Of a stretch of 64,000 nucleotides of DNA, positions 15,701 to 48,500 are shown piece by piece. The notes under the pieces were generated by a model. The model did not search any database. It worked only from the letters and a program-made list of their open reading frames with translations, and was not told where the DNA came from. This DNA comes from Meandrina meandrites (taxonomy: Eukaryota > Cnidaria > Anthozoa > Scleractinia > Meandrinidae): positions 3,561,618-3,625,617 of the forward strand of contig OY855915.1 of assembly GCA_963693305.1 (NCBI GenBank), written 5' to 3'. The number at the start of each line of letters is the position of its first letter. Position 1 is the stretch's first letter. The position numbers and the translations under genes are program-made.

Positions 15701-18700
15701 AAGATCTACCATCACTTCTTTCCCAAAACTGCCGTGACTATTGTTGAAAAAAAGTGAATGAATGTGTTTTTGATTTGATTTTCATTTTTCTTTGTTTAGA
15801 TACCTTTGATGGCACAACAAACATCTGCTGCAGGAATGTTGGCCTTCAACGCGGTCAAAGAAAGGTTGGTTCGTTATTTATATATTTTAATTTTTTTTTT
15901 GTCTTTTTGGTTTCAAAATTTTATCTTCTTTTGTCTTGTCTATACTTAGCATCTTTTACTCGCGCCTTCCGATGTGGCTGGATGGGGAATTTACATCAAG
16001 GAGCCTAGTAAAAAGAATGAATTCATTGGCGAATATTGCGGAGAGGTAGGAAAAACACTTTTTTTTTTCTCTTGATTCAAAAGTTTTGTACTCACGTTAC
16101 TCTATATTAAGGTGCCCATTATGTCAAAAATTCAGCCGATTCTACATTTTACTCAATGAACTTCTGCGAAAAAATTTTTCGATTTAGATAAAACGCAATT
16201 TTTTTATTAATTTTTAAAGACGTTTAAATTTGCCGCCATTTTGGTCCACCATTCGCACCAGTCTTCCTCAGTTTGAAGTGAGTTGTGACGTAGGTTCAGG
16301 AACATGTGATTTGAATCGTGTCTTACATGTATCTGACTTGTAAACAAGTGAGAATTTTCCTTCAGAGTCTGTATTTAGTTCAAAATGCTGGTCAGGAAAG
16401 GTTCGTTACCGCGAAAGGTGCGTTTTATCCAAATCGAAAAAATTTTCCGCAGAACTTCATTGGGTGAAATGTAGAATCAGCTGAGAAATAAAAATGTTTT
16501 GACGTTATGGGCACTTTAAGCCGAGTTTCCACTTTTACAGTGCTTTCTAGTTTTGTCACACAACACCTTTCAGCGCTGCGTGACACAAAATGGCGATCGA
16601 GGAGAACGCAAGTGAATTCCCAAGACTGCTTCTGGAAGTAATCTTTGCTGTTCTTGTCAGAAAGACAGTCTGAAAAAAAAACAAAGATAATTTATTGTTT
16701 CTTGTACTCTGTTCACCAGTTGAGAGAACAAGTTCCGTCATTTTTGGCAAGTTTTCGTTAAAACGAGCGAGGACTTTCTGATTCTTGTTAAGGGTACGAG
16801 CGCTTTGTCGCCTCTCTTGTCACGCTGCCTTTTGTGACTTTTGTTATTGTTCATTTATTGTAGATCATCTCTCAGGACGAGGCTGACCGCAGAGGAAAAG
16901 TTTACGACAAGTACATGTGCAGCTTCTTGTTCAACCTTAACAATGGTAAGGAAGAAAAGAAGGACGATAGTTTAAATTTTTCTAAAATTTACTACTTTTT
17001 TTCTGGAAAGTAGTGGGATCTTATAAGTGATTCATTTTTCACGGTCACTTTCGAGTTCCATCTTGAACCTAATAATAAAACTCATTGAACGGTAAGCCAA
17101 AGAGTAGCGCAAAAAGTTTGCGATGCACAATGGTGTAAGAATACAGTATGGAGCAATTTCCTAGCAGGTTCGTACGGGTCATGGAAAACCTGGAAAGTCG
17201 TGGAATCTTATAATTCACCTTCCAGGCCTGGAAAGTCATGGAATATGTGTTGGTCGTGGAAAGTTTATGGAAAATGATGTTTATTAAAAAGAACAAAATA
17301 GATTAGGTTTTCTCTGAACAAAACGGTAAAAAAATACCCAAAATGAACCATTATTTCTAAGAAAATGGTCAAATTTAGGTCATGGAAGACTTGGAGAAGT
17401 CATTGAAAAGATCATGGAAAGTCATGGAATTTCAAAAGCTCAAAAGGGAATGAACCTTGTTATAGGTGTTAAATGTGGAAGAATTAAAATTGAGAAGTAT
17501 CGCTCAGCGAGTCTTAATGGGTCGAGTAGCAGCTCTAGCAAGGTCCCACATAAATGGCACGCTAACCTTCGAAAGAACAATAGAACAAACAACAGGAACG
17601 ATGTTCCTAGCTCCCCCCCCCCCCCCCCCAAAAAAAAAAGGTGAAGGAAATACACGTGACCAGTGGCCAAGCGCGAGAAAACATAAAATTGGTGGCGAGC
17701 GCGGGTAAATATGTAACTAGTGGAAAGCGCGGGAAAACATAAAACTGCTGGCGAGCGCGGGAAAATATGTAACTAGTGGAAAGCGCGGGAAAACATAAAA
17801 CTGCTGGCGAGCGCGGGAAAATATGTAACTAGTGGAAAGCGCGGGAAAACATAAAACTGGTGGAAAGCGCGGGAAAACATTCAAATTGAGGCAACGGCGG
17901 GAAATATGTAACTAGTGGAAAGCGCGGGAAAACATAAAACTTGTGGCAAGCGCGGGAAAATATGTAACTAGTGGAAAGCGTGGGAAAACATTCAACTGGT
18001 GGCGAACGCGGGAAAATATGTAACTTGTAGAAGCGCGGGAAAACATTCAACTTGAGGCAACGGCGGGAAGTATGTAACTAGTGAAAAGCGCGGGAAAACA
18101 TTCAACTTGTTGCAACAACGGGAAAATATGTAACTTCTTCATCACCTCAGTGGTTAATTAAGCAAGTAAAATCTTTGTTCTCAGCAAGCGCAAAAACTAA
18201 GAAAACAATCCTTGTAAAACTGGGTTTCACACTTTAATATCTCTTTATTTGTTTTTTTGTTTTTTCAGATTTCGTTGTGGACGCTACTCGTAAAGGGAAC
18301 AAAATCAGGTTCGCAAACCATTCCATCAGTCCAAACTGTTACGCCAAAGGTAAGAGATCTTTCAATATTTGGGTGTTCAATACTTATTCAGATAGCTGTT
18401 AACTGAAATTATAGAACGCTAAATGAAATTTTATAAGGAAATTTCCTTTCCCGCCTTGTTGAATATTCGGACTCGGCTACAAATCGTATGTTCGGGAAAG
18501 TTTCGTTGTTAAATCCGAACTTGTCACGAAAGTCCTGTCTGGAACTGATGGCTAAGGGACAAATTAGACGGGACAAATTAGCCATGTTCTAAACGAGCAG
18601 GGGACTGGGTACGAACATATTTTCTCTTCGTTACAAACATTCAATATCGATTGAATTGAAAAATGGGGCATGTCATCTGAAAGAGCATCCAAAAATTAGT

Positions 18701-48117: not shown

Positions 48118-48500
48118 AATGGCGTCGTAGTCGGAGCCTCGAACAGCAGTTGAAACAACAGCAAGGCAGATGTCATGAGAACAAACAGAAGAAACTTGGA
48201 CACTTTCTTCTTTCTGAATGAAAAGAAACGAAAACAATGAATACAGCGAGACAGTTTTCGTCTCTTTCTCCATTGTCAGTTTGTTGGAGAAATTGTTAAT
48301 AAACTAGAATTATTTATTATCATTTGTCTTATATTTTCTACATCAGAATTTATCTCATTGTTCGTCAGCATCAGTTACAAATCCGCGCTCAACAATAGAC
48401 AGTGCAAAGTTGTTGGTGTTTTGGCGATCTTCGAACGGCAGTTGTTAAGAAAGCAAGGTGGATGTTATCTAAACAAACAGAAGCAAACTAGACCTCGCGA
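48118..48500 (+). pseudogene. Two GPCR relics downstream of the second EZH2 3' end
   Basis: At about 48120-48210 is a decayed C-terminal piece (GGCGTC..GAGCCTCGAAC, AGCAAGGCAGATGTCATG, ACAAACAGAAGAAAC). At about 48313-48492 is a TM5 to third-loop piece (TTATTATCATTTGTCTTAT ... CATCAGTTACAAATCCGCGC) fused to the tail (CTTCGAACGGCAGTTGTTAA). All frames are broken. Their place about 1 kb after exon 22' mirrors the relic at 31753 after exon 22, as if a third block once began here. Confidence 0.8.

Follow-up and report, generated by a model that had tools for sequence, protein, structure and literature searches.

Class A GPCR genes in and behind the 3′ part of a coral EZH2 gene: a tandem array that probably grew by repeated segment duplication, at times carrying the EZH2 3′ end

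How did an array of receptor genes come to occupy the 3′ part of EZH2 and the DNA beyond it, and how did the last exons of that gene come to occur more than once beside the receptors? The question is raised by a window of 64,000 nucleotides, the whole stretch of DNA that was analysed (C13:3561618-3625617, plus strand, in a 551-Mb assembly of 56 contigs). A sequence-only reading of this window had placed a tandem receptor array inside EZH2 and had it duplicated as a block together with the end of the EZH2 SET domain.

EZH2 lies on the plus strand and starts at ∼3.8 kb. Its exons were located by tblastn using human EZH2 and the Porites lutea EZH2 P0122 as queries. Nearly the whole P0122 protein was collinear with exons of the window, and no place was found in the window for residues 454 to 466 and a few residues at two exon edges. 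By this collinearity the exons are predicted to encode a CXC region, then a SET domain and a C-terminal catalytic tail, the order of an EZH2/E(z) H3K27 methyltransferase. The exon ending at 18349 is followed by a GTAAGAG donor, and the penultimate and last coding exons, here called 21 and 22, lie 11.6 kb past it. The upstream exons occurred once in 194 kb around the locus (E value, 1e−3; 5 kb of the 194 reads N), and exons 21 and 22 were present in two complete copies, tails A and B.

3778..18349, plus strand: upstream EZH2 exons, from the first coding exon (MESDLKRV...) to the exon ending ...SPNCYAK (tblastn, splice context)
18350..29957, plus strand: EZH2 intron holding receptors 0, a, b, d, and c (tblastn, exon joins)
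29958..30042, plus strand: EZH2 exon 21 (penultimate coding), copy A, intact (alignment, splice join)
30660..30726, plus strand: EZH2 exon 22 (last coding), copy A, with stop; AATAAA at 30843 (alignment, splice join)
46377..46461, plus strand: EZH2 exon 21, copy B, same sequence as copy A (alignment, splice join)
47055..47121, plus strand: EZH2 exon 22, copy B, differing from copy A by one synonymous change; AATAAA at 47240 (alignment, splice join)

Four intact receptor open reading frames (ORFs) lie between 18349 and 29958 on the same strand as EZH2 and are predicted to be nested genes. No leftover of an original exon 21 or 22 was found just after 18349 in this receptor-bearing intron, the sole match being 28 bp on the minus strand (E value, 0.48). 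The receptor copies of the window were as follows.

19684..20598, plus strand: receptor 0, intact class A GPCR ORF (Pfam 7tm_1, 95.7 bits)
22115..23029, plus strand: receptor a, intact (Pfam, 97.4 bits)
24638..25537, plus strand: receptor b, intact (Pfam, 97.1 bits)
26008..26588, plus strand: d, a 3′ receptor fragment plus spacer, without the 5′ half (alignment)
27788..28687, plus strand: receptor c, intact (Pfam, 101 bits)
31733..32100, plus strand: receptor 0′ relic, in pieces (alignment)
33622..34533, plus strand: receptor a′, intact; sister to the receptor at C13:3,659,007 (ORF, Pfam, trees)
36393..37292, plus strand: receptor b′, intact; sister to b (ORF, Pfam, trees)
44137..44577, plus strand: broken d/c′ receptor, 5′ piece; not grouping with c (DNA tree)
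44778..45318, plus strand: broken d/c′ receptor, 3′ piece; sister to c (DNA tree)
48120..48652, plus strand: receptor relics 3′ of tail copy B (alignment)

The six intact ORFs (19684, 22115, 24638, 27788, 33622, and 36393) were all open, and all six scored between 90 and 101 bits against Pfam 7tm_1 (cut-off, 30.5); the two pieces of the broken copy at 44137 scored 57 and 47 bits. Each intact ORF carried NPFLY, which we take to be the NPxxY-type motif in TM7 of class A GPCRs. Receptors 0, a, b, and c of block A were therefore as the sequence-only reading had them, and d proved to be a 3′ fragment starting at 26008. The claim that the array is inside EZH2 stands for block A, which is certainly within the intron, but for block B it would hold only if EZH2 ends in the distal tail. 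In block B, the 0 relic, a′, and b′ were confirmed, and the spacer of the relic (32040-33485) was collinear with that of receptor 0. The remaining copy, at 44137, had been described as a d/c fusion. Its 3′ half was sister to c, but its 5′ half fell in an unresolved fork of the DNA tree in which c was not its sister; the fusion is a reasonable reading short of proof, and the gene is broken. Two copies of a 67-bp stretch of receptor sequence, in direct orientation (44511-44577 and 44778-44844), enclose a 200-bp insert here, and the insert (44578-44777) is rich in TTCCGGGAA-like words.

Several other features were recorded in the window. A minisatellite at 38266-38756, with a 9-bp unit TACCGACTG in 54.7 copies, lies in block B, in the ∼6 kb that separate b′ from the broken receptor. 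On the minus strand, a 278-codon open frame with tetratricopeptide repeats (Pfam TPR_2) was found at 56834-57670, and another at 50928-51389 is presumably similar to the terminal part of a LINE-type reverse transcriptase. No match to Rfam was obtained in the window at the gathering threshold. Polyadenylation hexamers after the receptors were considered as evidence of interference and were not used: eight 700-base stretches, of which that of d starts elsewhere than at a stop codon, contained 22 AATAAA/ATTAAA (overlapping hexamers included) against 11.6 expected from the window average, and the excess was clustered in a, d, and a′.

The receptor family is large, with at least 131 matches in the genome; among the best 120 receptor relatives listed, the named organisms were the corals Oculina patagonica and Orbicella faveolata, which, with the Porites EZH2 match, points to a stony coral as the source. 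The same-strand array at EZH2 extends well past the window, to C13:3,690,387, and all 34 receptor matches in 164 kb were on the plus strand. Between 3.58 and 3.69 Mb of C13, ten full-length receptor copies were free of stop codons, an eleventh (3,682,055) stops a few residues early, and the others were broken or partial.

The duplication of exons 21 and 22 was upheld, as both copies are intact and each reads to the same stop when joined to the exon end at 18349. Joined in silico, tails A and B gave an identical peptide, and thus the EZH2 protein would be unchanged whichever is used. Acceptors, donors, stop, and AATAAA are intact in both. By distance, the proximal tail would normally be used by EZH2, and the distal one would be a usable spare yielding the same protein. 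Between the two tails, 1 of 152 exon sites differed, compared with 89 of 1,051 in the surrounding intron and flank (Fisher P = 9e−5; binomial P = 0.011 at half the flank rate, a model in which only one copy is constrained).

This contrast bears on the idea that the second tail is under selection as a working alternative EZH2 3′ end, used in some cells or kept as insurance against rearrangement. The intact splice sites, stop, and AATAAA, set beside the altered remnants described below, also point that way. However, in a control in which the exon mask was shifted circularly, 53 of 1,203 shifts were equally extreme, and three intron runs of 70 to 104 aligned bases were also identical between A and B. 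Patchy exchange between the tails could mimic selection and may account for some of the likeness of the exons, so that the data suggest, but do not show, selection on the two copies. Use of the distal tail would moreover require read-through of the first polyadenylation signal. A selected second tail, which would add to the history favored below rather than replace it, is a tentative possibility on the doubtful side.

In a self-alignment, the collinear order proposed by the sequence-only reading recurred, but the identity was uneven. With gaps counted, identity was 79% for the spacers of 0 and 0′, 85% for a/a′, 93% for b/b′, 95% for the 3′ halves of c/c′, and 89% for the tail. Gap-free divergence ranged from 4.4 to 14.6%: it was 14.6% (206/1,408) for the 0 spacer and 13.0% (231/1,779) for a, and 4.4% (98/2,232) for b, 4.6% (60/1,311) for the 3′ half of c, and 7.2% (85/1,187) for the tail, with a step near 23.73 kb in block A and 35.49 kb in block B, between a and b. 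Synonymous divergence followed the same pattern (dS of 0.158 for a/a′, 0.058 for b/b′, and 0.076 for the 3′ part of c/c′), and the remaining 18 of the 21 pairs compared had dS values of 0.19 to 0.28; dN/dS was 0.43 to 0.74 across the 21 pairs. DNA trees of the receptor halves joined b with b′ as sisters (support 86/99 and 100/99) and likewise the 3′ halves of c and c′ (100/99). In both halves, a′ was sister to the receptor at C13:3,659,007, 64 kb away, with a adjacent in the 3′ half (99/98); a protein tree, whose bootstrap had not converged, gave a′ the same placement. A stretch of ∼200 bp before tail A (29465-29663) is missing at B, and the matches on its two sides overlap there by 9 bp, a pattern like that left by insertion of a small transposon.

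These results bear directly on whether one clean tandem duplication of a 12- to 16-kb block produced the pair. The recurring order of 0, a, b, (d)c, and tail agrees with it, as do the sister pairs b/b′ and c/c′ (3′ halves). Against this, divergence falls from 13 to 15% to 4 to 7% between a and b, dS shows the same disparity, and the closest relative of a′ lies outside both blocks; the two blocks thus did not arise from one event alone, and the single block duplication of the sequence-only reading was not sustained. The further tail remnants also speak against it, and the reading would require later replacement of the 0′-a′ half by other members of the array. We consider it unlikely.

The near identity of the tail exons between A and B raises another concern, that two haplotypes of one locus were placed in series during assembly; allelic duplications are often retained in coral assemblies according to passages of PMC10236652. 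The divergence between the blocks (13 to 15% in the 0 spacer and a, 4 to 7% elsewhere) exceeds the heterozygosity of 2.3 and 1.14% given for two corals in passages of the same paper. Eight database proteins matched the locus exactly from residue 2 (four in the window and four beyond it), all on one 217,685-bp record, which supports an array over an artefact. This record, shorter than C13 and presumably an independent assembly, lists receptors from both blocks and from the array downstream of them. Given the divergence, the altered tails past the window, and this shared record, an assembly artefact is very unlikely.

Three additional remnants of the EZH2 tail were identified in the same receptor array, 23 to 82 kb past copy B.

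C13:3,632,190-3,632,470, plus an adjacent stretch starting at 3,631,999: EZH2 intron 21 fragment (tail-DNA search)
C13:3,685,879-3,686,491: intron 21, altered exon 22, and 3′ flank (tail-DNA search, alignment)
C13:3,690,873-3,690,997: altered exon 21, behind the last receptor (local alignment)

The claim that EZH2 end exons travelled with the receptor array thus came out stronger than it had been made, as this happened more than once. A genome search with 1.2 kb of tail DNA gave at least 215 matches, with 40 of 1,241 candidates scored. Most of the matches listed corresponded to one dispersed satellite unit of ∼106 bp that lies in intron 21 (window 30255-30374) and occurs on several chromosomes; among the matches listed, only A, B, 3,685,879-3,686,491, and 3,632,190-3,632,470 extended well past it. 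Since intron 21 holds this satellite, the evidence for the remnants rests on exon 22 (E value, 7e−71) and exon 21 (E value, 9e−30) and, at 3.632 Mb, on intron sequence outside the unit. The exon 21 remnant at 3,690,873 was absent among the listed tail-DNA matches and was detected by local alignment only. It has 9 inserted in-frame bases and changes at conserved sites, and its AG acceptor, GTAAG donor, and open frame are kept. The exon 22 remnant diverged by 19.4% (126/648) from A and 19.2% (125/651) from B, and in the same alignment A and B differed by 6.0% (42/699), which indicates copying at different times. The relic at 48134-48652, 3′ of tail B, shared 94% identity with C13:3,634,207-3,634,727, which lies 1.7 kb behind the intron 21 fragment, and this pair appears to be a further segment duplication. 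An assignment of the unit before the altered exon 21 at 3.691 Mb to c was rejected, as the spacer match was a receptor 3′ flank common to other receptors.

Tail sequence is thus found at five places, and tail copies do not correspond one to one with receptor copies. No EZH2 tail was detected by blastn (E values up to 0.01) in 130 kb covering four other close receptor clusters, at C13:2.80 Mb, C13:4.72 Mb, C9:6.50 Mb, and C2:39.85 Mb, a set separate from the more distant ones (e.g., C13:7.35-7.77 Mb); two protein matches in C2 were at chance level (E value, 3.4). The receptor coding regions are single open frames, as would be expected if receptors had been retroposed into the EZH2 intron and the tail copies were dispersed retrocopies. 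However, A, B, and the exon 22 remnant retain intron and flank sequence, this array alone of the regions examined yielded tails, and introns and spacers are collinear; retroposition is hardly credible as the origin of the locus.

The junction between the two blocks indicates where segments may have been joined.

30904..31732, plus strand: junction (A/B tail comparison, receptor-leader alignment)

The similarity between tails A and B stops at 30903 and 47301, and from 30905 short pieces (at 30905, 31114, and 31697 onward) are collinear with the receptor leader at C13:3,648,026-3,648,426. The EZH2 3′ flank is therefore joined to a receptor unit, as for a tandem duplication with breakpoints behind EZH2 and in a receptor leader. 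After tail B, no comparable match to a receptor leader was found in 47302-48120.

Taken together, it is probable that the receptor array, anchored at EZH2, was enlarged by several rounds of segment duplication and by exchange, and that it at times carried the EZH2 3′ end along. The process would have acted on tandem class A (rhodopsin-type) GPCR genes that occupy the 3′ part of EZH2 and the DNA beyond it, all in the orientation of EZH2. Before any copying there was probably already a receptor 5′ of exon 21, because one is found 0.5 to 1.3 kb ahead of that exon in A, in B, and in the altered version at 3.691 Mb. Similar units would then have exchanged unequally, with unequal crossing-over as the presumed engine, and segments of one to several receptors would have been duplicated. 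As receptors stand between the third-last and the last two EZH2 exons, some of these segments would have copied the tail, namely those running beyond the end of EZH2, which would have taken the last two exons along. One tail should suffice, and surplus tails would be free to decay; three have changed. The exchange part of this history is weakened by the view, expressed in passages of PMC10236652, that gene conversion is uncommon in corals.

A database protein from a 16,961-bp record, P0009, combines c′ and c sequence as a mosaic and lacks the insert by which c′ is broken. At 42 sites diagnostic for c or c′, P0009 agreed with c′ at 29 of 29 up to residue 218 and with c at 11 of 11 from residue 253, and residues 242 and 244 were split. 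It may be an allele from exchange between copies, an older allele from before conversions in c and c′, or a collapsed draft contig.

A bolder extension, in which EZH2 has a movable 3′ end, would treat the tails as interchangeable SET-tail cassettes along the array, with unequal exchange shifting the working tail and the firing of nested same-strand receptors setting the amount of full-length EZH2. We regard it as quite unlikely; were it true, receptor turnover would be physically coupled to Polycomb output. Under the history of repeated duplication and exchange, a growing receptor family drags pieces of a conserved chromatin gene with it, and the copies, at differing stages of decay, would make that history readable in one locus. 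The locus also offers a natural test of whether a conserved gene with its last exons in an unstable array is kept working by a spare terminal cassette, by rearrangements being selected against, or by the two combined. A further caution is that EZH2 may come out split or fused when genes are predicted in tandem arrays of corals.

Among known systems, modular duplication with truncated ends of neighboring genes, as in human RCCX (STK19-C4-CYP21-TNX), is the closest kind. According to passages of PMC8362596, the tandem RCCX module carries such flanking-gene ends (STK19B is 914 bases of a 3′ end and TNXA a truncated copy of TNXB) and was shaped by unequal crossover and gene conversion. The coral array likewise holds a flanking-gene end in a tandem module, at five places as against one occurrence of the upstream EZH2 exons in 194 kb. 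In contrast to RCCX, the module here is partly in an intron of its host, the end carried is that of a Polycomb methyltransferase, and copy B is still complete. RCCX varies in copy number between individuals by non-allelic recombination; for the coral locus, the observation that bears on this is the P0009 mosaic from another record, which is possibly a collapsed draft contig.

A second likeness is with the tandem GPCR families of coral genomes. In passages of PMC10236652, rhodopsin-like GPCR is the commonest domain in coral-amplified orthogroups (34/192); those passages describe no piecewise copying of a neighbor gene, unlike the EZH2 tail here. Among the titles listed in literature searches, none dealt with cnidarian EZH2 exons being copied alongside receptor genes. 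The third is with nested genes such as H13/Mcts2, in which an independent gene lies within a host intron. Passages of PMC13309782 describe nested genes as common in mammals and nested transcription as able to trigger early polyadenylation of the host. In EZH2, by contrast, several predicted genes of an array are nested. The less usual aspect of this locus is that these features come together: a multigene array nested in its host gene has repeatedly duplicated the catalytic end of that host, and one extra copy is still complete.
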